This document shows, piece after piece, positions 13,032 to 45,779 of a stretch of 64,000 nt of DNA. Each line of letters begins with the position of its first letter. The stretch's first letter is position 1. Source of the stretch: Brachycybe producta (lineage: Eukaryota; Arthropoda; Diplopoda; Playtdesmida; Andrognathidae); the NCBI GenBank assembly GCA_036925085.1, contig JAUPFP010000016.1:2380903-2444902 (forward strand), given 5' to 3'. The notes under the pieces are model-generated. The model was given only the letters and a program-made list of their open reading frames with translations, had not been told where the DNA came from and searched no databases. The position numbers were made by a program, and so were the translations under genes.

Positions 13032-13719
13032 TGTAACACCCTGTAAATCGTGATCCCGCCAAAACCATAGCCTGGGGGGTAAACAACTCTCAACCGTCCC
13101 TCCCTCCTCTCTGACTCACCTTTCTGACTCATGCCCAAGTGGCGGATTGATACGTAAAGGACCATGGTCACTTGGACCTGGTTACACCTCGCAGGTGTAC
13201 ACAGGTCCAAGGTATAAAAGGACCATGTTCCTCTTTGTTCCTCAGTTCTTTCCTTTGCCTGTTTTTGCGATACATTCCAAATCATGGGCCTGAGGATTTC
13301 CAGTTAGTATTTTACTATTCACCCTTGTATCTGTACTTCTTACAAGGAATGAATAAAAGTGTTGTAATAAGAAGTAGCGTTGTCTCTATGTCTTTATGCT
13401 AATAACTTCTCTTCAGAGGCCGGAGGTTTCATAGGGCAGGAGCTATACGATTCTCAGCAGCTACAACATCTTCTCTAGTCGGAATACCGATGGAGAAGAT
13501 GTATATCAGCATCAACCGGAAGAGAGAGAGATGGCCGCCACTCTCCTGCATTGATTTCACCCCCATGCAGAAGAGTGACTACAATCTATCTCCATCCAGC
13601 TCTCTCTACAGCTCGGATCTTCTCTGTGCAGGTGCCATACTGCTCAGAGAAGAAACGAAAAGTAGAAAATGTCATCTAAAGGTTGGTAATAAAATATTGG
13701 TTGATGTCAAAAGCTCACA
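13032..13719 (+). repeat. 5' LTR of element A
   Basis: Starts TGTAACACCC and ends AAGCTCACA. The U3 contains a long hairpin (13171-13211) directly before a TATAAAA box at 13213-13219. An AATAAA signal lies at 13352-13357, giving U3 of about 210 bp, R of about 130 bp and a long U5. A 92-codon open frame beginning at 13490 in U5 runs through the primer-binding site; it is probably fortuitous. Confidence 0.95.
13171..13219 (+). promoter_or_regulatory. LTR core promoter: hairpin abutting TATA box
   Basis: CTTGGACCT (13171-13179) pairs with AGGTCCAAG (13203-13211), and the inner ACACCT (13184-13189) pairs with AGGTGT (13193-13198). TATAAAA follows at 13213. The same arrangement occurs in all four LTRs in the window. 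Transcription should start about 25-30 bp downstream of the TATA box. Confidence 0.75.
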
Positions 13720-13721
13720 TT

Positions 13722-13740
13722 TGGTGGAGGTGCGGGGTAT
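13722..13740 (+). other. Primer-binding site, probably tRNA-Ala
   Basis: TGGTGGAGGTGCGGGGTAT lies 2 nt after the LTR. Its complement ends ACCCCGCACCTCCACCA, which fits the 3' end of animal tRNA-Ala (T-stem CCCCG, acceptor strand, discriminator A, CCA). It would prime minus-strand cDNA synthesis. Confidence 0.75.
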
Positions 13741-13840
13741 AGCTCCATCTGCCTTCTCCGACCTGTAAACAGAAGCCGTCCTTTGTCCTAAGTCTCGTGA
13801 TTGTGCCTCACGAGGCTTCGTCCGTCCTTTCTATGTTGGA

Positions 13841-14190
13841 GCCACGTATGGAGACCCTCGATAGCGTCAAAGTCAACCGCGTGGCGCCTGTCTGTAAAAC
13901 CGCGTATGGAGACCCTCGATCACGTCAAAGTCAACCGCGCGGCGTCCTTTGTGTTGGAACCACGTGTGGAGACCCTCGATAGCGTCAAAGTCGACCACGT
14001 GGCGCCTTTGTAAAACCGCGTATGGAGGCCCTCGATCACGTCAAAGCCAACCGCGCGGCGTCCTTTGTGTTGGAACCACGTATGGAGGCCCTCGATAGCG
14101 TCAAAGCCAACCGCGTGGCGCCTTTTTATGTTGGGATCATGTATGGAGGCCCTCGATCACGTCAAAGCCAACCGCATGGTACCGTTTTTG
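13841..14190 (+). repeat. Leader tandem repeat, six units of 56-61 bp
   Basis: Six units, each with GGAG[AG]CCCTCGAT followed by GTCAAAG[TC]C[AG]ACC, start their GAG[AG]CCCTCG core at 13851, 13909, 13969, 14025, 14085 and 14146. Units alternate between a TAGCGTC type and a CACGTC type, so the higher-order period is about 117 bp. Element B has the same array on the other strand (about 44640-45000). Confidence 0.85.
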
Positions 14191-15351
14191 TGGAATCGCG
14201 AAAGAGACTTGTGGCTACACACACCACGTGTCGACCGCGCGATTCTGTGTCCTGTCCTTAGAGACACGTGGGAACGAACTTTTGTCTGCTGACCGCTTAG
14301 CACTCGGAAAGTGGACAACCGTTTGGACACACGTGTTTCCGTCCGTGTTTTTGTATTTCATGTTTCCATTACAATCACCCACTGTCACCTTCACTCTTCT
14401 TTAATTTTCAAAGTGAAACCCACACCACGTGGGCAACACTTTAAACAAATTCTTCTTACTCTCCGAGAGGAGTTTGCAGTCTCATTATGAGATGAGCAAA
14501 CAAATCTCATCTACTAATCTATTCATCTATTAATAGGCTTTTAAAGGACGTGTGTGTCTTTTAAAATGTCCTATTATCTTCACTCTTCATCTTTAATTTT
14601 CAAGCAAGATTCTCCCTAGCTCTATTTCATTGTTAGGGGGCTTACAAGCTTAAAACACACTTTTTCTAGCCACGTGGGACTTTCTTGTCCCCCCTTTTCT
14701 TTGTTCTTTGTTTTTACACTTGTGTTTCCCTTGGGACCCTCTATGTCCCAAGTCATGTTCTTCAATTTCTTCATCATCATCACCTCAATGCATCATCACA
14801 TGAACTTTCTCCATTGGACAGCACTGAAGCCCGGCCGCCATCTTGGATCGACCGGACACTCTTCAAAAAGCGCCAACGGAGCGGTTTTTCGCTCCATGTG
14901 ACTCATTGTTGTACCTTCTCTCATCTTTTTGTGTTCTCTTCTCTTCTCTTCTCTTCCAGAGGGTTGCACTCACGCGCCCCCTGGCGGAGTTCCTCTTGTT
15001 AGAGAAAACTTCTCTTTTTCTTTGAATTTTCTCTCCTTTTGTGTCTTTCTCCTGGCCACCATAAAAACGTGCCCCGGAGGAACTTTTCAATCATCAATTT
15101 TTTGGACATTGCAATAAACTGAACCGGAAGTGGCCACCTCAGCGCCACCTACGGACTTCTTCATTCTACTCAACATAGTCCCTCACTGGGCACTGACTCT
15201 GTCTTTTCATCCAGAGCCATCCAGCAGTGAGGACTCAAAATTTCTCCAGTCTGAACATTTCTTCTGGTTCACCAAGTATTTATCTTGTTGAACACACTTC
15301 AATTTCTACACTGTTTTACTGTTTTAATAAAACTAAATTGAAACTTTTGAT

Positions 15352-15366
15352 GTGCGGGCACCGCAC
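15352..15366 (+). other. GC hairpin, first copy
   Basis: GTGCGG-gca-CCGCAC, a 6-bp stem with a 3-nt loop. A second, slightly altered copy lies at 15545-15558. Both are present in element B. Candidate RNA dimerisation or packaging stem-loop. Confidence 0.6.
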
Positions 15367-15900
15367 CTAAGTTTTAAACTTTCAAAGTAAAACAGCTTTC
15401 TTTTCTTGCTTCTTTGGAGAGTTCAGCCATCTTGAACTTCTCCTTTGTTTGTGCATTTAAAAAGTTCAGCCATCTTGAACTTTTTGTTCTTTGTGTGTTC
15501 TTCACACACACACTCTTCATTCTTGTTTCTAAGTAAAACTAAAAGTGCGGGCACCGCGCTCTAGCTTTACTCTTCATATTGCTTGCCTCTTCTTCAGGCA
15601 ACTGCAATACACTTCCATTTCTAATTCACTTTCCGCAGTGCAATTTCGATTGGGTGGTGTACCACGCTCGCAATTGCATTGTACATCTGTTGTTTCTTCA
15701 TCGAGACTTTTGGGGATTCTTACAACCTCCACGTGGTCACCAAATACCACGTGTAGAGAGAGATCTTACCAAAATTGATACTCAATAAAGAATTTACAAA
15801 CACACTGTACCAGTTGGGATCGTCACACCCAACTGAAGAACAACGCCAACACCAACACAGCCACTTAAACAACGATACCATCTTTATTAAACGTAGGGAA

Positions 15901-15947
15901 ACTATCGTCACTCAGTGTATAAGGGTACGATAGTGTCGGTTGCCGAC
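15901..15947 (+). other. Double hairpin before ORF1
   Basis: ACTATCGT (15901-15908) pairs with ACGATAGT (15927-15934), followed at once by GTCGG-ttg-CCGAC (15935-15947). Element B keeps both stems (42863-42908, minus) although the surrounding sequence has diverged, which suggests a selected RNA structure, possibly a packaging signal. Confidence 0.6.
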
Positions 15948-16038
15948 GAAAAGACTGCAATCTACAGCGAGATCAACGGCCAAACCTACATAACACCGAC
16001 TTACATTGATCACTACGTGTTACACAAGCCTTAACATA

Positions 16039-19000
16039 ATGGATGCTCACCCACGACTAACTGGGACCGCCCGGAGAGCTCTTCCGCACTCCAGGGGAAG
16101 CATATATCCATCAGCATTATGGAGGGCCTATGCAACATCACAGACATACGATACACAATACGCCGCATCATCACGTGTGGCTGTCCCACTCGGACCCACC
16201 ATAGATCCAGTTATTCAACCTGGGACCTGGTGGGTGCCACGAAGTGGCGGCACCCAAAGTAATGATGTGCATCAACAGTCTACACGGCGCACGGCTCGGC
16301 CCACAAACAATAGTACATTTCGACGCCTAATGTCGTCCACATGTTACTCCAGATATCAACAGGAGCGACCTCCGCTACTACCAGATCCACTTCCCACACA
16401 GTCGTGTGATGGCTGTAAACTCAACACCATCATGCATCAACTTAATGAACTAAAAATACAGATCACTCACATGATGATTATTCATAATGGCACCCAACCG
16501 CCGCCTGCGCCACCACTACCGACTACATGTACTACAACACCACAATATCGCCAATATCGTAGCGAATCAGACAACTCTCCGCCGTACGCTGTCGGGCACC
16601 GAGAGCCGTACGAGTCCGGCTACGATTCATACTACAGACGACATGTACCAGGTCCATATACGACACCTGAAGAGCGCGCGTACTATGTACCGCGCTATAC
16701 AAACTATGAGCGTACAGAACATCAGTACGCGCACCCGATCTACGATTTCACAAGGGAGGCCTCCGATACGGACCACCGTAGTGTGGTCATGGTACCGGAT
16801 ATGCCTCCTGAGACAACCAATTATGACAGAGCACCGGCCGGCATGCCAATAATGATGGTCGACTACATCCCGGAATTAACCTGGGGAATGGATGACCTAA
16901 CTAACTGGCATGGTACCCTTGAGGTCATTAACCTCGCCACCGCCGCCTTGGGTTGCACCGCCAATGAGGTGGTCGCCATCTTGGCCCCAGGTGGTGGGAC
17001 GTCACTCCAAGGGCGCCCCTGCTGCCGCCGGATGCTGAAAGACCTATATAGACAACTGAAGAATACTTGCATGCCCCAAGAGATAGGAGATCATAGTGTC
17101 AGTGATGACAGTCCGAAAATCACTGTCACTATCAATGGCAAAGAGGTCCGCATGCTCGTAGACACCGGAGCTCATGGTAGTGTAATATCCAAGGCACTTG
17201 CAAAGCAGCTCCAACTCAACATCAAGCCTATGGCCCATCCGCCAAGGATTGAGGGAGTTGGAGGAAACACCATCGCCGTGGCAGGGCAAGTCTCCGCTAC
17301 TGTGGAAATTGCCAAACAATCTGCCACGGGCCGCCTGCTGGTTATCACTGGCCCACCCGACGCCATCTTAGGCCGAGACCTGGGTAGGGCACTGAAGCTC
17401 CTTGTGTCTATGCAGACCAATAAAGTCTACTTAGAAGACGACCTTTTTGAATCAGCACTCCGAAGGCAGAGTATTCAGGCGTACGTCAAGAGTGCCCTGG
17501 AAGAAATCACGCCAGCCACTCTTGGGGAGTCGGACACCGCTCCCATTGAAGTCAAGCTTATGCAGCAACCGAACGAATACCTAGTAGTCAAAGGGCTAAC
17601 ACAGCTCACTGGCCATGGGACAACACTAGTGGAGGTAGAGGCCTCTGGGATCCTCACAGATCAGGATCTTTTCGTGGTCTCTCCTGACGAGAAGCTACGC
17701 GCCTCGAGGGGGGTCTGGGTGGCCCCCGGCATTATGCAAGGCCGTAACAGCAACAGCTTCCTAGTCGAGGTCCTGAACACTACTACGGGGCCATTGACCC
17801 TGGCCTCCGGCGAAGTGATAGCCCACGTACAAAAAGACTACTGTTTCGAAACGGTTGAAGTAAAGACCACTTCAAACGCTGACCCGATCATGACAAAAGA
17901 GTCAGGCGCTAAATTCGATGAAGCAATGCAACTCGGGCCTCGATTACGTAATGGCCAGAGGCGCATTCTAATGGATCTTTTGAGATCCTATCGAGATGTC
18001 TTCGCGCTAGAAACGTCGGAACTTGGATGTACCAACCTCACGGAACACCGAATCGATACTGGCGATCATGCACCCGTGCGGGAACCCCTCCGAAGGAGTG
18101 GCCCCGAGCAGCGGGAGATCATCCGGAAGACAGTTGAGGAAATGCTCAAATCCGGAGTAGCCAGCGCATCCAAGTCTCCTTATGCTTCAGCAGTAGTCCT
18201 GGTGAAGAAGAAGGATGGACAGTGGCGTTTCTGCGTTGACTATAGACGCCTGAACGATATCACCAAACCAGACAATTACCCACTACCCCGAATCGATGAT
18301 GCTTTAGACTCGCTTCGGGGGTCGAGAATCTTCGCGACCCTCGACATGATCTCCGGCTATTGGCAATTTGAGGTCGCCAAAGAGGATAGGGAGAAGACCG
18401 CGTTCATCACACCTGGTGGGCTGTTCGAATTCAATCGGATGCCCTTTGGTCTGCGTAACGCTCCTGCTACTATGCAGCGTGCCCTGGATATCCTTTTGGC
18501 TGGCCACAAATGGGAGACTTGTCTAGTCTACCTAGACGACATCATCGTATTCGGCGCGACTTTTGAACAGTTTATGGAAAGGTTGGACTGCGTCCTAGGA
18601 CTCCTAAGAGAGGCGGGGTTGAAGCTTCACCCCGAAAAGAGCTTCTTCGGCTACGACGAAGTCCTCTACCTGGGACACATCATCTCCAGAGAGGGAGTGC
18701 GTCCAGACCCGAGGAAAGTGGTTGCCATCTCCGACTTAGCGGCGCCTACTAATGTCAAGGAGGTGAAGCGATTTCTGGGCATGGCCGGTTTTTACCGGCG
18801 ATTTATTGTCAACTTTGCCCACATCGCTAAACCACTCACGGATATGACCAAAAAGGGGCTGCCCTTTTTATGGACGATCGACAGAGAAGCAGCATTCACT
18901 CTGTTAAAGACTAAACTTGTCACCGCGCCAATATTGGCCATTTACGACCCAGATGCCGAAATCAAAATGCACACCGACGCCTCTGCTTACGGCATCGGAG

Positions 19001-20727
19001 CTATCCTCTACCAACAGTCACCATCTAAGGAACTGCAGATCCTGGGTGGTGTCTCTCGAGTGCTCCGAGACGCCGAATTAAATTATTCAACAACAGATAA
19101 AGAGTGCCTCGCAGTGGTGTACGGCATCGTCAAGTTTAGACCTTATCTCTTTAACAAAGCCTTTGTCATCGTCACCGACCATCATGCACTGTGCTACTTA
19201 AAAACCGCACAGCGACTCCAAGGACGCCTGGGTCGCTGGCAGCTACTGCTCCAGGAATACGACTACACCGTAGTCTACAAAGCCGGCATCACTCACGTGG
19301 ATGCAGATTGCATTTCACGGAGTCCGGTGGACGTTCCTGAAGACTGGAAGCTGCAGGCTACCCCAGATGACCTCGACGACAGCGTGGTTTACGCAGTCAC
19401 TTTGCGTTGGGATTGGTCGGTTGAACAAACAAGAGACCCGAACGTGACACAGATTAAGACCGAACTTCGCAACAATCCAAGTACCGAGCTTCACCATACC
19501 TATGTCATCATAGACGAGGTTTTGTGTGCCCTTGTCTACCAGGGCAGCATAACACCCAAGCTCGTGACGGTGGTACCCAAACATCTGGTACCCGAAGTTC
19601 TGAGACTTTTACACGATAGTCCTGAAGCCGGACACTTCGGCCAGGATAAGACATTAGAAAAGGTGTGCCAACGGTTCTTTTGGCCAACCTGGAAGCAGGA
19701 TACCATCGAGTATGTGCGCACGTGCGAGATATGCCAAAAGTGCAAGACACCACAGTCCAAGCTGCCCGGGTTCCTCCATGAAATGGAAATTGGAGACCCA
19801 GGTGAATGCTGGGGAATCGATTACATCGGTCCCCTGCCAAAATCACTGGGTGGTGTCAAGCACATCATCCTGGCAGTGGATTACGCCACCAGATTCTGTT
19901 TCGCACGAGCTGTGCACAGCCAGTCGGCCAAAACAACTAAGAATTTCCTCCAAGATACGATCGTGTATCTTATCGGGATGCCCAGGAGGATAATCACCGA
20001 CCGGGGAACACCTTTTACAGCTAAAGACACACAAGCGCTGTGTGACGAGCTGGGAATAAAGCACGCCACCACGACAGCGTACTTTCCGCAAGGAGACGGT
20101 CTTGCGGAAAGGACCAACAAAACTATAATGCAGACCGTCAAGAGACTCCTGACGCCTGAAAAAGGACAGCGGGATTGGTATTTCCATCTCCAAGCCGCCA
20201 CCTTCGCTTACAACACCGCGACCCATACGTCAACGAAGTTCTCGCCATACCGCTTAATGTTTGGAAGAGAGGCCCGACTACGAATCGACAATCGGGCACC
20301 TCTCCTACCGAAGGTTATGGATTCAAACCCTGCAGCACCTTCTGTGGTTGCCACGGAAGAGGTCGAGATCGCAAGGGCCAACCTGCACGAGGCCCATCTG
20401 CGACAGAAGAAGTACTATGACGCAAGACGGAAAACTCCACACACGTATAAAATCGGAGACCCAGTACTCGTTCGAGACCAACGCATCGTACCTGATGAGA
20501 CCAAGAAACTACGTTACTCGTACAGGGATGGTTACACGGTAACCAAAATCATCAGCGACACGGTGCTCGAGCTGGAGCACGAAGATACGTTTGGAAGATT
20601 GATTCGAGACACGGTGAACATTGTGCATATCAAGCCAAAACAACTGAGGACAGTTGTTCAAGGGTTGGAGGGGGAAGACAAATCCAGCTCCCCACAACAA
20701 GAGGAACCTACCTCCTCACCACAATAA
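16039..20727 (+). CDS. pol: Element A ORF1: matrix-like N-terminus fused to protease-RT-RNase H-integrase
   Basis: 1,562 residues without interruption. The start chosen is the first ATG in frame (MDAHPRL). Residues 1-~270 are Tyr/Pro/Arg-rich and resemble the N-terminal part of element B's Gag (both have a VGHRE/VGYRE motif and a PAGM motif), but no capsid or CCHC knuckle follows. The aspartic protease has LVDTGAHGS (DTG 375-377) and ILGRDLGR. RT has FATLDMISGYW (Asp769) and YLDD (831-834). RNase H has HTDASAYGIGA (Asp980). Integrase has an HHCC zinc finger (HFGQ to CEICQKC) and a D-D-35-E triad at Asp1261, Asp1321 and Glu1357. The C-terminus has a degenerate GPY/F-like segment (YSYRDGYTV) and no chromodomain. 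Domain order places it in Ty3/gypsy (Metaviridae). All catalytic residues checked are intact. It should copy and integrate RNA but cannot build a capsid. Confidence 0.95.
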   Translation: MDAHPRLTGTARRALPHSRGSIYPSALWRAYATSQTYDTQYAASSRVAVPLGPTIDPVIQPGTWWVPRSGGTQSNDVHQQSTRRTARPTNNSTFRRLMSSTCYSRYQQERPPLLPDPLPTQSCDGCKLNTIMHQLNELKIQITHMMIIHNGTQPPPAPPLPTTCTTTPQYRQYRSESDNSPPYAVGHREPYESGYDSYYRRHVPGPYTTPEERAYYVPRYTNYERTEHQYAHPIYDFTREASDTDHRSVVMVPDMPPETTNYDRAPAGMPIMMVDYIPELTWGMDDLTNWHGTLEVINLATAALGCTANEVVAILAPGGGTSLQGRPCCRRMLKDLYRQLKNTCMPQEIGDHSVSDDSPKITVTINGKEVRMLVDTGAHGSVISKALAKQLQLNIKPMAHPPRIEGVGGNTIAVAGQVSATVEIAKQSATGRLLVITGPPDAILGRDLGRALKLLVSMQTNKVYLEDDLFESALRRQSIQAYVKSALEEITPATLGESDTAPIEVKLMQQPNEYLVVKGLTQLTGHGTTLVEVEASGILTDQDLFVVSPDEKLRASRGVWVAPGIMQGRNSNSFLVEVLNTTTGPLTLASGEVIAHVQKDYCFETVEVKTTSNADPIMTKESGAKFDEAMQLGPRLRNGQRRILMDLLRSYRDVFALETSELGCTNLTEHRIDTGDHAPVREPLRRSGPEQREIIRKTVEEMLKSGVASASKSPYASAVVLVKKKDGQWRFCVDYRRLNDITKPDNYPLPRIDDALDSLRGSRIFATLDMISGYWQFEVAKEDREKTAFITPGGLFEFNRMPFGLRNAPATMQRALDILLAGHKWETCLVYLDDIIVFGATFEQFMERLDCVLGLLREAGLKLHPEKSFFGYDEVLYLGHIISREGVRPDPRKVVAISDLAAPTNVKEVKRFLGMAGFYRRFIVNFAHIAKPLTDMTKKGLPFLWTIDREAAFTLLKTKLVTAPILAIYDPDAEIKMHTDASAYGIGAILYQQSPSKELQILGGVSRVLRDAELNYSTTDKECLAVVYGIVKFRPYLFNKAFVIVTDHHALCYLKTAQRLQGRLGRWQLLLQEYDYTVVYKAGITHVDADCISRSPVDVPEDWKLQATPDDLDDSVVYAVTLRWDWSVEQTRDPNVTQIKTELRNNPSTELHHTYVIIDEVLCALVYQGSITPKLVTVVPKHLVPEVLRLLHDSPEAGHFGQDKTLEKVCQRFFWPTWKQDTIEYVRTCEICQKCKTPQSKLPGFLHEMEIGDPGECWGIDYIGPLPKSLGGVKHIILAVDYATRFCFARAVHSQSAKTTKNFLQDTIVYLIGMPRRIITDRGTPFTAKDTQALCDELGIKHATTTAYFPQGDGLAERTNKTIMQTVKRLLTPEKGQRDWYFHLQAATFAYNTATHTSTKFSPYRLMFGREARLRIDNRAPLLPKVMDSNPAAPSVVATEEVEIARANLHEAHLRQKKYYDARRKTPHTYKIGDPVLVRDQRIVPDETKKLRYSYRDGYTVTKIISDTVLELEHEDTFGRLIRDTVNIVHIKPKQLRTVVQGLEGEDKSSSPQQEEPTSSPQ

Positions 20728-21071
20728 ACCAATAACCCTATCAACAACCCACACAACCTAAATTTTTTCTTTCGGTTGTTTATATCATCACATTGGTCAC
20801 TTGATGACACACACCAATATAAACAAACAACAACGTGTGTGACCACAAACATTCACACACCCCTGCCCACATTTCACCACTCGAATCTGATTCCAATGGG
20901 GAAACTTTCGTACACTGCGTTTGGGGACCAGGTCGTCTGACAACAATAACAAACAACAGTGGAAGAACGGCGTTTAATACTCAGAAACCGACACCCCGCG
21001 AGCCTCCAATAACAAACAAATTGGGTGGCTTATTGGAGTTCCAGCCAGCTTCGTGGAATTATACGATTTCC
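20728..21071 (+). other. Spacer between element A ORF1 and ORF3
   Basis: 344 bp, rich in CA/AACAA. An open frame in phase with ORF3 extends back to about 20835 without an ATG, so a spliced or non-AUG start for ORF3 is possible. No transmembrane-coding or signal-peptide sequence was seen. Confidence 0.5.
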
Positions 21072-22073
21072 ATGGGACCCTGGAATTTCACACCTCGATG
21101 GGGAAGTCGGGAAACACAAGTATATAGCCAACGCCAGGCTGGTCACCAGCACTTCGGAAACAATTCTGGAAGAACAAGGATGTCACAGTGCAACGAAACA
21201 ACGGGAAGCCAGGACGATGCCATCCCTGACCCATCTACTAGGATGGACTCGGATGACACGACAACGCAGCAACTCGGCATCGAGGAAGTCGGGGACGACA
21301 CAGCGCGCGCCATTGACCTAACGACGTCAACTGCCTCGTCTCGCCATATCGCCGCAGCCTCAGCAACCCCCGTACTAACTTTGCCACAAGTGACACAACC
21401 TTTTCGCATACCGACAGTCACTACCAGGAGACTACCGGTATATCGACCGCTTCGTCAGGAAGCACGATGTGAAAGACTGCTAAATAATTGCTGGGCACTC
21501 TGGCAACGACAGGTGCGGCCCGCAAACACCTATTACATCGGTCACTATGACCTGATGGAGGGATTTCCGCGCCTCTACATACCGGAGGAAGGGCGCTACG
21601 TTGTAGGAATGTCATACTACCTGCAACTCTCTATGGCCGTCCTAATTCCGTCCACCCGGTACATCGAAATATACCAGTTTGCCGAGCAGCCCATCACTCC
21701 AGCATTGGGCGCCCTTCAGCAGGCTTTCTTTAACAGTCTCCTGGGAGTCCCACTTAACGGAGCATACAGCATTGCCCGAATGATCGTTTGGAGGACCCGC
21801 GCCACTTACCAGGCCGCCATCCTGTGGGACGCCGTTTACGGTGTCCTCACCGGGCAACCACCGGGCCGACTGATCGCCGCCGACGCCACCGTCCACCGAA
21901 GTTTCATGGAAAGTCTCCGGGGCTTCGACAACGGATGGATCGTCGCCGCCTGGGAATCCTATCATCCCTGGCTGCGGAGCCACCTCCTCCACTCACCGTC
22001 AGACCCCCTACAAGCACTTCACGGATATGTTTCTGCATGTACATGTGCATGCAATCAACCGACGTGGGTATAG
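21072..22073 (+). CDS. Element A ORF3, unknown protein, homologous to element B ORF3
   Basis: 333 residues from the first in-frame ATG (MGPWNFTPRW); a later ATG at 21180 is also possible. The N-terminal third is Ser/Thr/Gln-rich and looks disordered. The C-terminal ~190 residues form a folded-looking block: ERLLNNCWALWQRQVR, TYYIGHYDLMEGFPRL, EGRYVVGMSYYLQ, AAILWDAVYGVL and WIVAAWESY. The same block ends element B's ORF3 at about 35-40% identity with the same motif order. There is no signal peptide, membrane segment, furin site or zinc finger, so it is not an obvious Env. Function is unknown; its presence in both members argues that it is not Gag or Pol but is needed by each element. Confidence 0.75.
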   Translation: MGPWNFTPRWGSRETQVYSQRQAGHQHFGNNSGRTRMSQCNETTGSQDDAIPDPSTRMDSDDTTTQQLGIEEVGDDTARAIDLTTSTASSRHIAAASATPVLTLPQVTQPFRIPTVTTRRLPVYRPLRQEARCERLLNNCWALWQRQVRPANTYYIGHYDLMEGFPRLYIPEEGRYVVGMSYYLQLSMAVLIPSTRYIEIYQFAEQPITPALGALQQAFFNSLLGVPLNGAYSIARMIVWRTRATYQAAILWDAVYGVLTGQPPGRLIAADATVHRSFMESLRGFDNGWIVAAWESYHPWLRSHLLHSPSDPLQALHGYVSACTCACNQPTWV

Positions 22074-22091
22074 ATTAGAAAACCGTGTGGT

Positions 22092-22218
22092 CACCGCCCA
22101 TTGCGGTGGTGAGCTCGAAAAATATAAAAAAAAAAAAGAAAAGAATTCTGTTATAACTGCTTTATGTATAAATAAGTATTTCTTGTAAATTTCCATAGGA
22201 ACTCGCCACCCAGCGAGT
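22092..22218 (+). other. Element A 3' hairpins with covarying stems
   Basis: CACCGC-ccatt-GCGGTG (22092-22108) is followed by an A-rich run, then ACTCGC-caccca-GCGAGT (22201-22218). Element B has hairpins at the same places with different but still paired bases: TGCCACCC/GGGTGGCA, and GCTCGC/GCGAGC with an A-T to G-C pair change. This looks like conserved 3' RNA structure. Confidence 0.65.
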
Positions 22219-22247
22219 ATTAATTGTGTTTGCCTTTTTATTTTCAG

Positions 22248-22313
22248 AATTTGCATTTTTAAGGGCGCTGACACTTCGGTGCCAGTGCCTTTCCATAACC
22301 ACCTCTGTACACG
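22248..22313 (+). other. Possible 3' mini-exon with conserved splice sites
   Basis: A pyrimidine tract ending ttttcag (to 22247) precedes a 66-nt segment that ends at GTAAGT (22314-22319). Element B has the same arrangement (36329-36396, minus). No acceptor between the donor and the 3' LTR was identified. Confidence 0.4.
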
Positions 22314-22412
22314 GTAAGTCCTCAGCCACCCATGTCTCCCCGCTGCGTAACTTGAAAACCTTCCACCCTTGGCTGGAGTACGAGGACGTACTCCAAGCAA
22401 AGTTGGAGGGTA

Positions 22413-36396: not shown

Positions 36397-36424
36397 CTGA
36401 AAACATAAAACAAAGATAATTAAT

Positions 36425-36530
36425 GCTCGCTGAGTGGCGAGCCGCTATTGAAATCTAAAAAGAAAAGAACAGTTGCAACGTATTTTATTTTTTTATAAAT
36501 TTTTCGATAATGCCACCCGGATGGGTGGCA
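36425..36530 (-). other. Element B 3' hairpins
   Basis: TGCCACCC/GGGTGGCA (36511-36518 with 36523-36530) and GCTCGC/GCGAGC (36425-36430 with 36437-36442), separated by an A/T-rich run. These are the counterparts of the covarying stems in element A. Confidence 0.65.
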
Positions 36531-36632
36531 ACCACATGAGTACATGTGGCGCGCAGCTATCCCTGCTGCGGAGGGTGGGGAGGATCCTGGGTCCATGAAC
36601 CGTACGGGGGGGTAATCCCGCCGGACCTGGCC

Positions 36633-38810
36633 TCATCGGTAGCTGGATGCGGCAGACAGCCATTGTCCCTGGTCGTCAGGTAGATCCCGGTGGAAGATAT
36701 TGAAGATGTCCCGGTCCCCGATAATCTTGCGGGAGGACCGCTTGTTGTACAGTGTAGCCCAAGCGGCGTCCCATAAGACGGCGATTCGGTAACGAGGATC
36801 CGGTTCCGGAATGTAGTGACGGCTGGTACGGAACGTCTGTCCAGCTGGCAGTCTAAAGACGGAGTTGACGAAAGCTCCCAAAAGGGCTTCCGTGGCTTCA
36901 TCGATGGCATCTCCGGCGAAACTGGTGGTTTCAACAATCCGTCTTCTTGGGAAGACGATGGTGATGAGGACACTTGTTAGGCGGGAGAGTCCCACGACAT
37001 ATCGCTCCCGGGGAGGGAGGTCCAGACGGGGAAACCCTTCCTCCAAAGAGAAGTGTCCTATGTAAAGGGTGTTGGCAGAGCGCACTTCGCGCTGCCAAGT
37101 GACCCACCGATTGTTGAGCAACCTCTCGCCGGAGGTGGCTGCACGGAACGGATGATCCAGCGGTAACCGCCCCAGAGTAGCCCCGGCATGGGGTACAGTG
37201 GGCGGTGCGGCTGGTCGGGCTGGTGTTGGAGCCGCAGGTTCCAAAGAAACTGATGCGCCCGTGATAGGCCTGGCATGGCGCAAGGCGGACCGGGCCATAT
37301 CGCGGGCCCGCTGACGTAGTCGCTTCGATGCCGACTTCCTGCTCAGCGCCTCCAGTGGCTTGGCACTTCCTGGTGCACGGCCCAGTGCTTCCATGGGGTC
37401 ACCTCCCTGTCGCATGACGTCTTGCAGAAGGTTTGTGATGGCCTTCTGTTTTTTCAAGAACGCGGCACGCTCTGCGGAAGGTGGCGGCATCAAAGGTGTA
37501 GGCGTAGGTTGTCCAGAAGGGCGGCCCGGAGGTGGCGGAGGAGGAGAGCGACGCGGGACCCAAGTAGGAGGGCCCCGAGTTTCATAGCGATGGTCGCGGT
37601 CCAGTTGGACTCGGTGATCCTGTAGGTCTTGCCTGACCCTTGGGTCGAAGTTATTACGCGGCGGAGGGCCGCGTCCAGAGGAACCGCGTTGTTCCTGCTG
37701 ACTTCTTCCGTCGGGTCGGTGTCGGGGCGAAAGATGGGAACCACGTGGCGAAGAGCGACGTGGTTGTGGCCGTTGAAGAGAGTCTCGAGAAGAGTGGTGG
37801 CCCCTGTAGGACTGTTGAGGCTCCTTGGGGCGAGCCCCAGTGGGAACCTGAACACGAGCAGGTTGGGGAACCACCACTATGGAAGGTAGCTTTGGAGTCG
37901 GAGTTGGTGTGGCGGCCTCGCTGCGTGGAGGCGTGGCACATCGGGAGGTTGGTGGTGACGATAATGGTGTATGAGGAGGAGGCGGCGGAGTGATTGACGG
38001 CACCGGTGAGCAGTGTTGGAAAGGCTCTGGTGGCGTTATGGGTGGAGAAGGAGATGTGGAGAGGCCAGTTGTCAGGGTTGCTGGCGAGTTTGAGGATGGA
38101 GGTGATGACGTGGCCGATGACGTAACTCGGGCGGCTTCTTGGAGTCGGGCCTCGATTCGCAGGAGCTCCTCCTTCGGGAGGTGCGCCGTACACGGTAAGC
38201 CCAGCTCGACAAGGCGGGCGCAAACCGCACGGAGGTACGCCAGATTGTCCTCCCCTTCCTTTTTATCTCTGGCTGCCTGGCGAAGGGCAGCCTCCCTCTG
38301 CATCTCCAAGTGGAGGTCTTCGAGGGGGGAGGGCACAGATCCACCTCCCCCACGCTTCCCTCTTGTTTCAGCTCCACCCGGAATGGGTTGACCAGGCGCG
38401 ATGCTATCGCGGAACGCCTGGTTAACCCCCCATGCCATTGTATTAATATCGATGCGGTCTTCCCGCTCCTCCCAGTAGTGTTTTGATGTCGTGACGTCGA
38501 AGGGGACGATGCTGCTTGGAGCAGCAGGCTTCCCTTCGCGCCCGACATTGGCAGGTCGCTTGAAGCTTGCTTTTAGGCGCTTCTCCCCACGCCGGTGAAA
38601 ATTCTCCGGTTCGGAGGAGGTGCGGCGCCTATCTATTGTGTTTGGCGACTCTCTTCTTGTTATTGGCGCACTGGCGGCGCCCGCCCTTTGTAGCTGGCAG
38701 GTAGATTGAGAGAGGGGTTCAGCGGTCCCCGCCGTTCCACTCTCCGTCTCATCTTCACTAGAAGAGGCAGACATCATTCTGCCTCCTCTCCATGAGCCTC
38801 TACCTGGCAT
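36633..38810 (-). CDS. Element B ORF3, unknown protein with Pro-rich N-terminus
   Basis: 725 residues from ATG at 38810 (MPGRGSWRGGR); an in-frame non-ATG extension reaches 38873. The first ~500 residues look disordered: basic and serine-rich, then a helical, charged stretch (LEDLHLEMQREAALRQAARD), then long Pro/Ser/Arg tracts. A helical basic segment (FLKKQKAITNLLQDVMRQ to RLRQRARDMARSAL) precedes the C-terminal block shared with element A: ERLLNNRWVTWQREVR, TLYIGHFSLEEGFPRL, ERYVVGLSRL, IAVLWDAAWATL and WLSAASSY. There is no signal peptide or membrane segment. GC content and codon use are higher than in the surrounding host DNA. Function unknown; the basic, disordered arm suggests RNA or DNA binding, which is only an inference. 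Confidence 0.78.
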   Translation of the reverse strand: MPGRGSWRGGRMMSASSSEDETESGTAGTAEPLSQSTCQLQRAGAASAPITRRESPNTIDRRRTSSEPENFHRRGEKRLKASFKRPANVGREGKPAAPSSIVPFDVTTSKHYWEEREDRIDINTMAWGVNQAFRDSIAPGQPIPGGAETRGKRGGGGSVPSPLEDLHLEMQREAALRQAARDKKEGEDNLAYLRAVCARLVELGLPCTAHLPKEELLRIEARLQEAARVTSSATSSPPSSNSPATLTTGLSTSPSPPITPPEPFQHCSPVPSITPPPPPHTPLSSPPTSRCATPPRSEAATPTPTPKLPSIVVVPQPARVQVPTGARPKEPQQSYRGHHSSRDSLQRPQPRRSSPRGSHLSPRHRPDGRSQQEQRGSSGRGPPPRNNFDPRVRQDLQDHRVQLDRDHRYETRGPPTWVPRRSPPPPPPGRPSGQPTPTPLMPPPSAERAAFLKKQKAITNLLQDVMRQGGDPMEALGRAPGSAKPLEALSRKSASKRLRQRARDMARSALRHARPITGASVSLEPAAPTPARPAAPPTVPHAGATLGRLPLDHPFRAATSGERLLNNRWVTWQREVRSANTLYIGHFSLEEGFPRLDLPPRERYVVGLSRLTSVLITIVFPRRRIVETTSFAGDAIDEATEALLGAFVNSVFRLPAGQTFRTSRHYIPEPDPRYRIAVLWDAAWATLYNKRSSRKIIGDRDIFNIFHRDLPDDQGQWLSAASSYR

Positions 38811-40286
38811 ATTTCTCAAGAGTTTAAAAGTTCTTACTTTTTCAAAAGTCCCGCTGCTGGTGATTACTTCCAAATAATAACAGAAATCGGTCCCCGATCA
38901 CTCTGTTATTATTTCAAGAGGTCCAAAAAGTTCTGAAGGCCTGATGCACTGCACGTGAGTTCAAAGGCTTGAAGGTGGCACTCAAGCTTTTGATTAACAA
39001 CAAAAACTGAAGAAGTTCGAAATTAAGATTTGGAACTTGGCACAGAAGTAGATTGAGGATTTGATGATATAAAGAGATGAACAAAAACGAGTGCTTCTTT
39101 GAAGAGAGCAAATCAAGTGGTAATTGACCAAGTTTGGTCACTTTTCTTATTTAATTTTAAAAGTTAGAAGGGCCGGCCCCTTTTAGAATAAGACACCTTA
39201 CTCTAATTGGTTTCTTCACGACTTTATTTATTGGGGGTGGGGGTTGTCCCACCGACATTAGATGTGAGAGGTGTTGATCTAATTCTTATCAGAGTCGGTC
39301 CTGTTTATTATTTTTAGATAAACAAAAGGACTAAGGAATCTCGAGGGAGAAGGGCCGTTATTTTATTTCACACCGAGGTGTGAAGTTGCCCATTAACTTT
39401 CTCCCCTTCTTTTCCTTAATGCCTTTTTTTGGAAAGAATAGGTCAGCAAGGTTACTAATGTACCTTGCTGTTGGTTATTATTTTTAGGGGGGAGTGGGGC
39501 AGGAGTTGGTGTCCCACAATTCGATCTTAATTGAGAGGGTGACAGGTTCTTCAATTTTATTTTTTAATTGAAGGTGTCCGCTCTCACAAAATCCTCAAAA
39601 CTGATTTTCTTCCTTTTTTATTTGTTTATGGCCAGCAGTTTTTGTTGTTTGTTTTTTTTTCTTTGAAGTCCCAGTGCATTGGTCTGGCCCCCAGAGCAAT
39701 TGTCTCTTTGAAGTTTCTATCCTTCCACTGTCAACAGCATGGTCAATGACGTCCGTCCATAATAAAGGGGAGCACGGTGTTTTTCTTTTGCTGACCCTTT
39801 TATGGCTCTTGATTTTTCTTCTGAACGTCCTTGACTAGCCTTCGGCGTTTTTCCCAGATGTACCACGTGGTTGACAGTTGTGTGTGAAGGCCACGTGGTT
39901 CCGGTGTAGTTTATTGCATGTTTGAAATGGTTGCCAATATGTAAATATTGGCGGCCATTTTGAAAAGTTTAAGTGTTTCAAAAATTAAAGTTGTGTGAAT
40001 TTTGTAGAGTTTTGGGAGTTATTTGAGAGTGTTTAGAGGGGTTGTTGATGCTGTGGGGTTGTTTATTCGTTGGGGGGTTCCTTTTATCCCCTCCCCCACC
40101 TCTTGACAACTGTCCTCAGTTGTTTCTTAACACAACAATTCTCAAATTCCTCCCGCTCTTCTATTGTTGATATTTGATGGTTGCTGGTGTTTATTTCCAT
40201 AGTCATGAAATAAACACTGGTGAATTATTGTTTTATTTTCGTCGCGTTTGGTTTCTTGACAGCGTGGGTGGCCGTTGCTTTCGTCG
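38811..40286 (-). other. Element B spacer between gag-protease and ORF3
   Basis: About 1.5 kb where Pol would be expected, with no long ORF. Next to the gag stop is a GTAAGT splice-donor match. Near 40104-40120 is a stretch matching the 3' end of element A's pol (AACAACTGAGGACAGTTGT) with a purine-rich run after it. A palindrome GCCAATAT/ATATTGGC lies at 39933-39952 and a strong hairpin at 38872-38914. Confidence 0.65.
38872..38914 (-). other. Strong hairpin upstream of element B ORF3
   Basis: A 13-bp perfect stem (38872-38884 with 38902-38914) encloses a second 5-bp stem ATCGG/CCGAT (38886-38890 with 38894-38898). It lies about 60 nt before the ORF3 ATG and could affect translation or splicing of ORF3. 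Confidence 0.6.
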
Positions 40287-42668
40287 TCACTTACGGGGTG
40301 GAGTTTCGAGGTTTTCCTTAGAGGTGCTGGCAGATTTGCCAGGGGCCTCTACAGAAGTTTCTCCCAGAGCCCATCCGATGTGTGCTTCGATGCATTTTTG
40401 TCGGAGTGTGGATTCGAAGAGATCGTCCTCCACGTATACTTTGTTTGTTGTCATGGACACAGCTAAGTGCAGAGCCCGGCCTAGATCTCGGCCTAAGATG
40501 GCTTCGTGCCGGCCGGTAATCACTAGTAAGTGCCCTCGCACAGCGTGGGGGCCTAGCTGGACCGTCGCGGCGAGTCGCCCCACCACGGTGATCCTTTGGC
40601 CTCCCACACCCTGAATGTTGGGTGGGATTAACACAGGCTCGATTTCGAACTTGTGTTCCTGCGCGAGTTCAATGGTGATAACGCTGCCCGTAGCTCCGGT
40701 GTCCGCGAGCATCCGTATACTCTTTCCGTTGATCGTGACGGCGATGCGCGGGTTCTTGTCGCTGGCATCATAGTCTCCGACTTCTTGAGGTGAACAGCTG
40801 CTTACCAGCTGCTCATACACCGTTGTCATTAGTCTTCGGCAGCAGGAGTGGCCCTTCGTCGGCGATTGGGTTCCGGGAGCCATGATGGCTATTGTTTTAT
40901 TTTCACGGCACCCAATCTCCTTGACGGATTGTTTAAGGACGTCGAGCGTGTCCTGCCAAACGATTAGCTCGTCCGGGGTCCATTTATGTGCAGGAGCCCG
41001 GTCGAGCACCTTGACTGGTATATCCTCAGAGTCGTCAGAACTGTCGTTGTCGGGTTTATCAGGAGTAGGCGCTCCGGCGGCTGAGTCTGCTGCTGGAAGA
41101 GGAATCCGGCGGATTTGTCCCGCCACTCTTATTAGAGCAAACTCAACGCCGTCTTCGGTGATGATATCCGTTTCAGGCACCTCTCCTTTGATGTCGTAGT
41201 CGGTAACCGGCTCCCCAAACTGCTTGATTGCAACCTTCTTCTTGGGTTGCCGACACTCACGGACGAAATGCCCCAGTTTGCCACAATTATAACACGTCGA
41301 CTTACTCTTGTCGAACGTGCGAGTGGTCTCTGGTTGGGGGTCCGCTGCGGAGTGTCGGTTTGAATTGGTGGCAGCAGTCTGACTAGGCTTCTTATCGTGC
41401 CTAGACCGGTGTGTTTTGTCTTTAGGGCTGGCGGCTGCCGCCGGCTCCTGGTCGGTCTTCGATGCTCCTTTACCCGACTGTGAATCAGCTGCGGGTTTTG
41501 GTTCCGTCGGCCATTTATCCAAGGACAGCAGGACCACCTCCATATTGAGGACGGCATTTGCGAAGTCCTTGAACGACGTCGTAGATGCGTGATGCGCGGC
41601 GTTCTGTATGGTGGGATGTAGAGCGCGGCGCAACTGGCTTATACGTAGCTGATCGTCAAGTTGCGGGTAAACTCGGTCGCCGAGTATCATAAACTCCCAG
41701 ATGAAAGCTTGTGTACTCTCACCTTCCTTCTGGGGCATCTCTGTATACTTTTTCTCCAAGATGGCCAGTTCGTTCGGCTTCCCGAACGTATCTACCATCT
41801 GTACTCTCAGTGCTGGCCAAGGAATGTCCTGAAGCTCATACCTCAGTTTACTCAGCCACGTACGGGCGGCCCCAGTGAAACACCCCGTGATGTATTCCTC
41901 CTTGTGGTGGTCTTTCCAACCGTACAGGTGTGCCACTTCCTCGAATTCTTCCAGGAAGGGACGGAAACCTGTCAATCCGTTGAATTTTTGGATTGAATCG
42001 GCAGGGTGGCGACCGCTGTATTTCTTATTGAACTCTTCCACGGAGGGTTCTCTGGGGGTTGGTCGATAGATGCCATCCTGGACGTTTGACATTCCAGCCG
42101 GCATCAGACCTACCCCTTGCGGTGGAAAACGTGGCGCGTAAACTGAAGTGCCTTGTGTCGCTCCTTGGTTAGGCTGTTGTTCCGGGGGTGTCGAGCGGCG
42201 ACCGCTACGTGCAACCCGGACAAGCGAGTGAGGAGAATCAGCACGTGTCGTAATCGGTATTTCCGCACGCTCATCTCTGTGACGCGGATCATCTGACTGC
42301 CCTTGTTGTTGCCAGTCAGGGTTACGCGGTAGATGACGTGTGTGCGGTGTGTAATGTCTTTCGTAACGATCGTGACGCTCTCTGTAGCCAACATAGGGGG
42401 CTGAAGAGGCGTCCGAGTCATCGTCGCGAAGTCGGTGTGTGCGTGTTGTCCGCCGTGGTGTAGTCGGCCGATTCGGTGTGAATCGGTCGTCTATGAGCTG
42501 AGACATGCGAGTCGAAAGTGCAGCCACTTGTTGTGACAGGTGGTCAAACTCGGCCCCAGTCGGCCGCGGCGGTGGTGTCACATCAGTAGTCACGGGTACT
42601 TCCAACAGATCTTCGTGCGAACCCTGGTGATCAGACAGGGACCCCGTATTATCGTGTGAGGTAGCCAT
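40287..42668 (-). CDS. gag: Element B Gag-protease
   Basis: 793 residues, start MATSHDNTG. Residues 1-~200 are an Arg/Pro-rich matrix-like segment. Residues ~225-385 are a Ty3/gypsy capsid (retrotransposon-gag type: LEEFEEVAHLYGW, GAARTWLSKL, EGESTQAFIWEF, LRRALHP). The CCHC knuckle is C459-x2-C462-x4-H467-x4-C472 (CYNCGKLGHFVREC). Then an acidic linker leads into an aspartic protease, LADTGATGS (Asp656) with ILGRDLGR. The ORF stops soon after the protease, where Pol would continue in element A; the stop overlaps a GTAAGT donor match. Gag would form the particle that packages element RNA. The protease is about 60% identical to that of element A, and the knuckle and catalytic Asp are intact. 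Confidence 0.93.
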   Translation of the reverse strand: MATSHDNTGSLSDHQGSHEDLLEVPVTTDVTPPPRPTGAEFDHLSQQVAALSTRMSQLIDDRFTPNRPTTPRRTTRTHRLRDDDSDASSAPYVGYRERHDRYERHYTPHTRHLPRNPDWQQQGQSDDPRHRDERAEIPITTRADSPHSLVRVARSGRRSTPPEQQPNQGATQGTSVYAPRFPPQGVGLMPAGMSNVQDGIYRPTPREPSVEEFNKKYSGRHPADSIQKFNGLTGFRPFLEEFEEVAHLYGWKDHHKEEYITGCFTGAARTWLSKLRYELQDIPWPALRVQMVDTFGKPNELAILEKKYTEMPQKEGESTQAFIWEFMILGDRVYPQLDDQLRISQLRRALHPTIQNAAHHASTTSFKDFANAVLNMEVVLLSLDKWPTEPKPAADSQSGKGASKTDQEPAAAASPKDKTHRSRHDKKPSQTAATNSNRHSAADPQPETTRTFDKSKSTCYNCGKLGHFVRECRQPKKKVAIKQFGEPVTDYDIKGEVPETDIITEDGVEFALIRVAGQIRRIPLPAADSAAGAPTPDKPDNDSSDDSEDIPVKVLDRAPAHKWTPDELIVWQDTLDVLKQSVKEIGCRENKTIAIMAPGTQSPTKGHSCCRRLMTTVYEQLVSSCSPQEVGDYDASDKNPRIAVTINGKSIRMLADTGATGSVITIELAQEHKFEIEPVLIPPNIQGVGGQRITVVGRLAATVQLGPHAVRGHLLVITGRHEAILGRDLGRALHLAVSMTTNKVYVEDDLFESTLRQKCIEAHIGWALGETSVEAPGKSASTSKENLETPPRK

Positions 42669-45071
42669 GGTTAATGAAGTGGCTTGTGTAATGTGAATAT
42701 GCGGTGACGAACGAGTCCGGCGAAGTCCAAGTCGTTGTGTGCAGCTCCGAGGGTTCTCGAGTACACTCTGAGCTATACTTTCGGGTTCCAGTATGATGGG
42801 GCTCGTTCAGTTCGTGAAGTTGTAGGTCGGTGATGTCACGGTGCGTTGGTAATTTAGTGCTTGTCGGCAACCGACACTATCGTACTCTTATACACTGAGT
42901 AACGATAGATTACCTAAGCTTGTGACGTGTATAACGAAGTGGCCGTTCACTCCGTTAGTGTGGTGATGGTTGTATCGTGTTGATCGTGTTCTCAGTTGGG
43001 CGTGTGACGAGTTTTGGTTCCCAACTGGTGTGGCGTCGTGAGTTCTTTATTGAGCGTCAGATTTTGGAAGGATCTCTCTCGACACGTGGTATTTGGCGAC
43101 CACGTGGAGGTTACGAGAATTCCAAAAACCTCAATAAAGAAACAGCAGATGTACAATACAACCTCGAGCGTGGTACACCACCCACTCAAGATTGCACTGC
43201 GGAAAGTGAATTAGAAATGAAAGTGTATTGCAATTGCCTGAAGAAGAGGAAAGCAATACGAAGAGTAAAGCTAGAGCGCGGTGCCCGCACTTTTAGTTTT
43301 ACTTGAAAACAAGAATGAAGAGTGTGTGTGTAAAGAACACACAAAGAACAAAAAGTTCAAGATGGCTGAACTTTTTTAAATGCACAAACAAAGGAGAAGT
43401 TCAAGAGAAGAAAGCTGTTTTACTTGAAAAGTTTAAAACTTAGGTGCGGTGCCCGCACATCAAAAGTTTTAATTTAGTTTTATTAAAAAAGTAAAACAGT
43501 GGAGAAATTGAAGTGTGTTCAACAAGCTAAATGCTTGGTGAACCAGAAGAAATGTTCAGACTGAAGAAATTTTGAGTCCTCACTGCTGGATGGCTCTGGA
43601 TGAAAAAGACAGAGTCAGTGCCCAGTGAGGGACTATGTTGAGTAGAATGAAGAAGTCCGTAGGTGGCGCTGTGGTGGCCACTTCCGGTTCACTTTATTGC
43701 AATGTCCAAAAATTGATGATTGAAAAGTTCCTCCGGGGCACGTTTTTATGGTGGCCAGGAGAAAGACACAAAAAGAGAGAAAATTCAAAGAAAAAGAGAA
43801 GTTTTCTCTAACAAGAGGAACTCCGCCAGGGGGCGCGTGAGTGCAACCCTCTGGAAGAGAAGAGAAGAGAAGAGAACACAAAAAGATGAGAGAAGGTACA
43901 ACAATGAGTCACATGGAGCGAAAAACCGCTCCGTTGGCGCTTTTTGAAGAGTGTCCGGTCGATCCAAGATGGCGGCCGGGCTTCAGTGCTGTCCAATGGA
44001 GAAAGTTCATGTGATGATGCATTGAGGTGATGATGATGAAGAAATTGAAGAACATGACTTGGGACATAGAGGGTCCCAAGGGAAACACAAGTGTAAAAAC
44101 AAAGAACAAAGAAAAGGGGGGACAAGAAAGTCCCACGTGGCTAGGAAAAGTGTGTTCTAAGCTTGTAAGCCCCCTAACAATGAGATAGAGTTAGGGAGAA
44201 TTTTGCTTGAAAATTAAAGATGAAGAGTGAAGATAATAGGACATTTTAAAAGACACACACGTCCTTTAAAAGCCTATTAATAGGTGGATAGATTAGTAGA
44301 TGAGATTTGTTTGCTCATCTCATAATGAGACTGCAAACTCCTCTCGGAGAGTAAAAAGAATTTGTTTAAAGTGTTGCCCACGTGGTGTGGGTTTCACTTT
44401 GAAAATTAAAGAAGAGTGAAGGTGACAGTGGGTGATTGTAATGGAAACATGAAATACAAAAACACGGACGGAAACACGTGTGTCCAAACGGTTGTCCACG
44501 TTTCCGAGTGCTAAGCGGTCAGCAGACAAGAGTTCGTTCCCACGTGTCTCTAAGGACAGGACACAGAATCGCGCGGTCGACACGTGGTGTGTGTAGCCAC
44601 AAGTCTCTTCCGCGATTCCACAAAAAACGGTGCCATGCGGTTGGCTTTGACGTGATCGAGGGCCTCCATACATGGTCCCAACATAAAAAGGCGCCACGCG
44701 GTTGGCTTTGACGCTATCGAGGGCCTCCATACGTGGTTCCAACACAAAGGACGCCGCGCGGTTGGCTTTGACGTGATCGAGGGCCTCCATACGCGGTTTT
44801 ACAAAGGCGCCACGTGGTCGACTTTGACGCTATCGAGGGTCTCCACACGTGGTTCCAACACAAAGGACGCCGCGCGGTTGACTTTGACGTGATCGAGGGT
44901 CTCCATACGCGGTTTTACAGACAGGCGCCACGCGGTTGACTTTGACGCTATCGAGGGTCTCCATACGTGGCTCCAACATAGAAAGGACGGACGAAGCCTC
45001 GTGAGGCACAATCACGAGACTTAGGACAAAGGACGGCTTCTGTTTACAGGTCGGAGAAGGCAGATGGAGCT
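42669..45071 (-). other. Element B leader
   Basis: 2.4 kb from primer-binding site to gag ATG. It carries the same tandem array (about 44640-45000), GC hairpins and double hairpin (42863-42908) as element A. It is about 97% identical to A from the LTR to about 43220, apart from a ~30-bp deletion beside one agttcagccatcttgaact copy, then falls away toward the gag start. Confidence 0.75.
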
Positions 45072-45090
45072 ATACCCCGCACCTCCACCA
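45072..45090 (-). other. Element B primer-binding site, probably tRNA-Ala
   Basis: The same 19 nt as in element A (TGGTGGAGGTGCGGGGTAT on the minus strand), 2 nt from the LTR. Confidence 0.75.
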
Positions 45091-45092
45091 AA

Positions 45093-45779
45093 TGTGAGCT
45101 TTTGACATCAACCAATATTTTATTACCAACCTTTAGATGACATTTTCTACTTTTCGTTTCTTCTCTGAGCAGTATGACACCTGCACAGAGAAGATCCGAG
45201 CTGTAGAGAGAGCTGGATGGAGATAGATTGTAGTCACTCTTCTGCATGGGGGTGTAATCGATGCAGGAGAGTGGCGGCCATCTCTCTCTCTTCCGGTTGA
45301 TGCTGATATACATCTTCTCCATCGGTATTCCGACCAGAGAAGATGTTGTAGCTGCTGAGAATCGTATAGCTCCTGCCCTATGAAACCTCCGGCCTCTGAA
45401 GAGAAGTTATTTACATAAACATAGAGACAACGCTACTTCTTATTACAACACTTTTATTCATTCCTTGTAAGAAGTACAGATACAAGGGTGAATAGTAAAA
45501 TACTAACTGGAAATCCTCAGGCCCATTGATTTGGAATGTATCGCAAAAACAGGCAAAGGAAAGAACTGAGGAACAAAGAGGAACATGGTCCTTTTATACC
45601 TTGGACCTGTGTACACCTGCGAGGTGTAACCAGGTCCAAGTGACCATGGTCCTTTATGTATCAATCCGCCACTTGGGCATGAGTCAGAAAGGTGAGTCAG
45701 AGAGGAGGGAGGGACGGTTGAGAGTTGTTTACCCCCCAGGCTATGGTTTTGGCGGGATCACGATTTACAGGGTGTTACA
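45093..45779 (-). repeat. 5' LTR of element B
   Basis: 687 bp, apparently identical to 35543-36229, with the promoter hairpin, TATAAAA and AATAAA in the same places. It is followed outward by the target duplication cttc at 45780-45783. Confidence 0.95.

Follow-up and report, generated by a model that had tools for sequence, protein, structure and literature searches.

Two LTR retrotransposons with common ends and complementary coding content: a candidate two-component system in the millipede Brachycybe producta

Introduction

Partner pairs of long terminal repeat (LTR) retrotransposons are already known and, in each of the LTR cases compared here, at least one partner either has the full protein set or produces the protein missing from its companion. 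In rice, the non-autonomous element Dasheng, which is devoid of coding capacity, is said to have a putative autonomous partner in the complete element RIRE2. Here we analyse two Ty3/gypsy-type elements, A and B, from a stretch of 64,000 nucleotides of the millipede Brachycybe producta (assembly GCA_036925085.1, contig JAUPFP010000016.1, positions 2,380,903 to 2,444,902 of the forward strand; the whole stretch is called the window below). Element A bears pol without capsid or zinc knuckle and element B bears gag without reverse transcriptase (RT) or integrase (IN), while their ends are nearly identical. We estimate at roughly 57% the probability that A and B together form a two-component, co-mobilised LTR retrotransposon system.

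A study of wheat centromeres (PMC11302176) describes RLG_Cereba and RLG_Quinta as two gypsy elements with common LTR ends and a common primer-binding site, one of which codes for just Gag and a domain whose function is not known; this element has been put forward as a Gag donor. A and B, too, agree exactly in their primer-binding site and in their LTR termini, and a more distant relative in the same genome, D, matches them at the primer-binding site and at 13 of 14 bases of its inferred LTR start. The differences are that Cereba is autonomous and encodes all proteins, whereas A lacks capsid and zinc knuckle; that LTR and leader are approximately 97% identical between A and B and only partly conserved in the wheat pair; and that a complete partner with the same LTR and primer-binding site was seen in none of the 83 same-end elements typed here, D having the primer-binding site and only short pieces of the LTR. 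The ‘cooperative complex’ of RLG_Wilma, Sabrina and WHAM, as presented in PMC9744471, includes semi-autonomous Gag-coding elements that co-evolve with their partners, a situation like that of A and B; Wilma, however, is complete and the homology is limited to a few motifs, unlike here. In the barley Copia pair BARE1/BARE2, BARE2 is unable to make Gag, may translate the rest and is packaged, which resembles A; unlike A and B, these elements are Copia and not gypsy, BARE1 makes Gag itself and the defect is a single 8-bp deletion of the start codon (PMC3735527). Barley partner pairs are also described (PMC5738225) as having one partner that is complete or that supplies the protein missing from the other.

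A search of open-licence full texts found no two-component LTR retrotransposon of the A/B kind, the term ‘bipartite retrotransposon’ being used there for derivatives resembling short interspersed nuclear elements (SINEs). Pararetroviruses are not known to have integrase or LTRs. The nearest logic is encountered in the rice pararetroviruses ePVCVL and ePVCVL2, which PMC5491270 presents as two complementary incomplete partners with dissimilar proteases and with intergenic regions that are 99.3% identical and homogenised by recombination. Complementary proteins and homogenised non-coding ends are found in A and B as well, with a leader that keeps some type structure; ePVCVL and ePVCVL2 are known as genomic fossils, whereas A and B are LTR elements whose LTR pairs are identical and whose frames are open.

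Results

Element A (13032-23100, forward strand) is bounded by two 688-bp LTRs (13032-13719 and 22413-23100) that are 100% identical, and by the target duplication ACAC at 13028-13031 and 23101-23104. Its leader (13720-15993) contains the primer-binding site TGGTGGAGGTGCGGGG (13722-13739), also found in B and in D, and the purine-rich TTGGAGGGTA precedes the 3' LTR. The first open reading frame (ORF1, 15994-20727) is uninterrupted over 1577 aa from stop to stop and consists of an N-terminal stretch without capsid or CCHC zinc knuckle, followed by protease (17104-17397), RT (18202-18684), RNase H (18946-19260) and the zinc domain (19573-19749) and core (19798-20082) of integrase. Pfam matched protease, RVT_1, two RNase H models, Integrase_H2C2 and rve in this protein, and neither a gag family nor zf-CCHC; a motif scan recovered the active-site motifs DTGA for protease, YLDD for RT and D-59-D-35-E for integrase, and zero CCHC motifs in the first 600 residues. 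In a three-way alignment, clearest through the third element type described below, the N-terminus aligns with Gag N-termini, and protease follows with no capsid or knuckle in between; A ORF1 seems to retain a gag-like N-terminal remnant. A second ORF (ORF2, 20823-22073; 416 aa from stop to stop) lies 3' of the first.

Element B lies on the reverse strand (35543-45779) with the duplication GAAG at either side, and its 687-bp LTRs (5', 45093-45779; 3', 35543-36229) are 100% identical. Its leader (42807-45092) carries the same primer-binding site and is followed by an uninterrupted ORF1 (40287-42806; 839 aa from stop to stop, with its first ATG at 42668), in which Pfam matched Retrotrans_gag (capsid, 41616-41891), zf-CCHC (41247-41297) and protease (40476-40760), the motif scan found CCHC and DTGA, and Pfam matched neither RT nor IN. 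An interval without long ORF (38898-40286) separates ORF1 from a 3' ORF2 (36633-38897; 754 aa from stop to stop). Remnants of RT or IN were sought in this interval, and none were found beyond about 40 bp that match the end of A pol (blastn: 40 bp at 88%). Either leader contains a 116-bp tandem repeat (A, 13893-14124; B, 44684-44915).

The LTR termini TGTAAC...CTCACA, the identical LTR pairs and the 4-bp duplications characterise both A and B as Ty3/gypsy LTR elements, while the protease-RT-RNase H-IN order of that group occurs in A alone, B being without RT or IN. Gag and Pol within one element, as autonomy demands, are found in neither. An earlier note on this DNA had described A as lacking capsid and zinc knuckle while carrying protease, RT, RNase H and integrase, and B as carrying capsid, zinc knuckle and protease without RT, RNase H or integrase, and had reported intact LTR pairs, perfect 4-bp duplications, a common primer-binding site and open ORFs in both; each of these descriptions was borne out.

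A and B are most alike at their ends. They are 96.6% identical across the 5' 2.76 kb, which comprise LTR and leader, and 96.8% across the final 0.93 kb (blastn), the leaders remaining near-identical until about position 15790. Upon entry into the ORF the identity drops from about 97% through 87%, 76% and 73% to 47%, and the middle of the elements yields two short blastn matches only (107 bp at 76% and 40 bp at 88%). The proteases of A and B have a synonymous divergence (dS) of about 2.1, near saturation, and are 49% identical over 230 aa. In a comparison that included D, protease identity was 48% between A and B, 51% between A and D and 49% between B and D, values that point to three lineages of about equal age. 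Near-saturated dS in the proteases together with ends that are about 97% identical indicates that the coding halves are old and that the ends are young or have been kept alike. Among A, B and D, the LTR and leader are common only to the complementary pair A and B, and the remnants of the other half in each would fit complementary losses from gag-pol ancestors.

The ends were further compared among six A and nine B elements. The LTRs displayed no type structure (mean distance, p 0.76; nearest neighbour, p 0.71), mean distances in the first 1500 nt of the leader were alike across types (p 0.41), and LTR plus these 1500 nt contained 0 fixed differences and 7 shared polymorphisms. In this sample, LTRs pass freely between A and B, and leaders are alike yet partly inherited with the coding half. 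LTR pairs were identical in 13 of 14 elements and perfect 4-bp duplications were present in 12 of 14, both types being included. Recombination among family members during transposition has been reported for an Arabidopsis family (PMC5668417).

The genome (295 Mb in 442 contigs, with at least one stretch of N) was searched with a 5'-end motif made of the LTR end and the primer-binding site, allowing up to 3 mismatches, and with a 3'-end motif, giving 545 and 466 matches, respectively; chance is excluded for these matches because the reversed control patterns gave 0. The A-type RT motif matched 131 times and the B-type gag motif 332 times. Places were listed for the first 100 matches of each of the four motifs, and on the contigs labelled C1 to C5 an exact 3' partner was available for 83 of the 97 listed exact 5' ends. 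By listed motifs, RT alone was present in 23 of these 83 elements and gag alone in 48, with neither in 12 and both in 0; short pieces of the 12 motif-less elements assigned nine to B, two to A and one elsewhere. The final typing thus gave 25 A elements, 57 elements of B type (some without protease) and a single element of a third type, with none of the 83 carrying both gag and RT. Within 9 kb of the 14 exact 5' ends that had no exact 3' partner, gag was present in four cases, RT in one and neither in nine.

Spacings between end motifs cluster at approximately 8.10-8.33, 8.63-8.71 and 8.77-8.92 kb, with outliers at 6.34, 7.91, 8.50 and 8.75 kb; the longest is 8917 bp, and an A element enlarged by the capsid-knuckle stretch is estimated at about 9.8 kb. 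A comparison of 150 listed gag places with 136 listed RT places gave two gag-RT pairs lying within 12 kb of each other, and in neither of them does a same-strand RT follow downstream of gag. One RT match (among the best 150 of 2463) sits in a 5498-aa frame. A gag match with a 1916-aa frame was considered as a gag-pol fusion and rejected, the piece checked being a run of N that provides no evidence of fusion. At C17:4043330-4043520, one A and one B element follow each other head to tail within an AT microsatellite, with about 20 bp between them.

Many of the best-scoring copies of both halves are intact. Among the best 30 of 5260 candidate matches to A pol, all were full length and 29 were stop-free, and the best 54 of 4127 candidates for B gag were all full length and stop-free. 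Frames of 1570-1597 aa surround 69 of the 136 RT matches that rank above D (best 150 of 2463), while the best 150 of 1989 gag matches comprise 90 with frames of 837-846 aa and 40 with frames of 629 or 636 aa, the latter being a B subtype without protease (e.g. copy L041). Some decay was seen in ORF2, with one stop in the B ORF2 of copy L041 and two extra bases in the A ORF2 of copy L023.

Ratios of nonsynonymous to synonymous divergence (dN/dS) were computed against the window copies as simple, uncorrected Nei-Gojobori-type ratios. For pol the ratio was 0.11 over nine copies (8 of the 25 A elements, chosen among carriers of the RT motif, plus copy L040). For gag it was 0.09 over five copies and 0.14 over nine pieces reached via the 5'-end motif (the five chosen among gag-motif carriers of the 57 B-type elements, the nine pieces being those without the motif), and 0.11 over two copies reached via the LTR. 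Partial ORF2 sequences gave 0.17 for A (five copies besides that of the window) and 0.27 for B (nine copies). A set of 20 gag copies chosen by protein score (ratio 0.046, with the window copy counted twice) was excluded from the estimate. In the copies sampled, pol and gag are under purifying selection, with dN/dS of about 0.1. Outside this genome, the 7993 candidates scored for Gag included no homologue at E 0.01, and 18 Pol homologues were found among 7990, the top one with 33% identity across 49% of the query.

Relative D was recognised with the RT of A as query, which recovered at least 10 equal-scoring places at 86% identity, each in a 2287-aa frame. Pieces of one D copy contain capsid, CCHC and protease, and the frame runs on into RT; its length suggests that RNase H and IN are present too. 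D is apparently a distant, complete relative of A and B.

The element of the third type, C, is copy L082 (C5:1067500-1071800; 5'-end motif at C5:1065658), in which 6.34 kb separate the end motifs. It has an open 655-aa ORF with a gag-like N-terminus and CCHC, without capsid or protease, and with a stretch that is 29% identical to the integrase core of A and does not have the three acidic residues at their positions. Its gag-like N-terminus is 34% identical to residues 187-251 of A and 48% identical to residues 14-207 of B, and its 3' part continues with the end of A pol (96%), after which comes an A-type ORF2 disrupted by a frame change. This mosaic suggests that type C arose by recombination between types, and it could have a regulatory role. 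Among the best 68 of 3154 matches, the 655-aa ORF was fully open at three places, split at one and degraded at the others.

Discussion

The earlier note had proposed counting elements by gag and pol content and measuring dN/dS in each class, and had named as decisive against its idea a finding of many young gag-pol elements with the same LTRs, A and B being rare deletion copies. That situation was sought and not found among the copies examined: A and B are both multicopy (131 and 332 motif matches), none of the 83 typed elements has both halves, and the sampled pol and gag copies are under purifying selection. Its idea that A and B complement each other like the segments of a multipartite virus stands as far as complementary, multicopy elements under selection are concerned; a dependence on each other, rather than on D, is putative.

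If A and B do form a two-component system, they would both stem from old gag-pol Ty3/gypsy lineages, A having lost capsid and zinc knuckle and B the RT-RNase H-IN portion, as their remnants suggest. The two have their cis signals in common, namely the LTRs, the primer-binding site, the leader and the 3' end. Co-expressed A and B RNAs would enter the same particles, with a shell of B Gag and A Pol inside, and the pooled proteins would reverse-transcribe and integrate both. The observed likeness of the ends may be due to strand switching between co-packaged RNAs, which would leave the coding halves distinct, and selection would preserve the function of both halves, in keeping with the low dN/dS of the copies sampled. 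Mutual complementation of A and B in the cell is putative, and their strict mutual dependence is an inference from these sequences. The stronger proposal of an obligate system of two components, or perhaps three with type C, which has no autonomous member with these ends and in which recombination keeps the cis signals common, is tentative, and we place it slightly short of even odds. A pair of this kind, with both partners incomplete, both coding halves kept by purifying selection and the common ends remaining alike, would parallel the multipartite viruses among retrotransposons. It would allow tests of how a segmented genome can persist when its two parts are passed on within the chromosomes of the host, and of how selection operates on proteins that work in trans.

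Several observations weigh against a two-component system. The protease-deleted B subtype has amplified too, which implies that not all of B is required in cis, and one stop each was present in 4 of the 14 gag pieces reached via the motif (2 of 5 and 2 of 9). For a protein that works in trans, purifying selection would require cis preference or selection among groups. The nearest neighbour was strictly of the same type for 14 of 15 leaders (p 0.0003), so exchange has not erased the linkage between leader and coding half. A list of the LTRs closest to those of A was the source of all 14 LTR pairs and of all but one of the 15 elements in this comparison, which biases the sample towards alike, young LTRs. 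The remaining points concern D, which could supply either missing part to A or B. Its primer-binding region is identical to theirs over 23 bases, and its inferred LTR start, TGTGACACCCTGTA against TGTAACACCCTGTA, agrees with 13 of the first 14 LTR bases of A.

These points about D also favour the main rival explanation, namely that A and B are semi-autonomous elements both mobilised by D, A using D Gag and B using D Pol, with their own halves merely adding to the pool. The D frame, with capsid, CCHC, protease and RT, is present at no fewer than the ten places mentioned above, a few short colinear pieces of its LTR match those of A and B (e.g. 37 bp that are 78% identical in the region of the TATA box), and wheat systems with a full helper are described in PMC11302176 and PMC9744471. 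Apart from such short matches, however, the LTR and leader of D cannot be aligned with those of A and B, so that, of the three, A and B alone have their ends in common. D is also rarer (57 5'-end matches, of which 22 are exact, against 545), its capsid is only 56% identical to that of B over 249 aa, and A pol, which would be expected to decay if D pol served, shows no decay in the sampled copies. We consider mobilisation by D rather unlikely.

An improbable alternative is that A and B are deletion products of a gag-pol master with the same LTRs, which existed until recently or persists in sequence outside the assembly or outside the part examined. Each of them seems to retain remnants of the other half, the assembly is in 442 contigs with at least one stretch of N, and elements were typed end to end in 83 cases; the protein halves of A and B have nevertheless diverged to near saturation, and so are not recent deletions of one master, and both halves together occurred in none of the 83. 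That the pair reflects an artefact of assembly or sampling, or a chance juxtaposition of unrelated deletion copies, appears extremely improbable: nothing was found in favour of it, and what speaks against it is that the copies number in the hundreds, are spread over many contigs, have lengths specific to their class and in many cases have open frames.

Additional features of the window

Pfam gave zero family matches for the two ORF2 proteins, which are 39% identical to each other over 174 aa near the C-terminus of B ORF2. In a PDB sequence search, B ORF2 matched nothing up to E 1 and the best matches of A ORF2 reached only E 0.64-0.67. The C-terminal domain common to both is predicted to adopt a CE-clan (Ulp1/adenain-like) fold; by eye, no catalytic His-Asp-Cys was seen at the expected places in either protein, and the domain may lack catalytic residues.

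Scans of the window for transfer RNAs (tRNAs) and Rfam families gave zero matches. Another interspersed repeat is present in two copies (25027-25885 and 57580-58438) that are 85-97% identical depending on the segment. A 422-aa ORF on the reverse strand (6431-7699) has no Pfam match; it has one homologue, 56% identical across half its length, and one further, weak match to a wasp protein.

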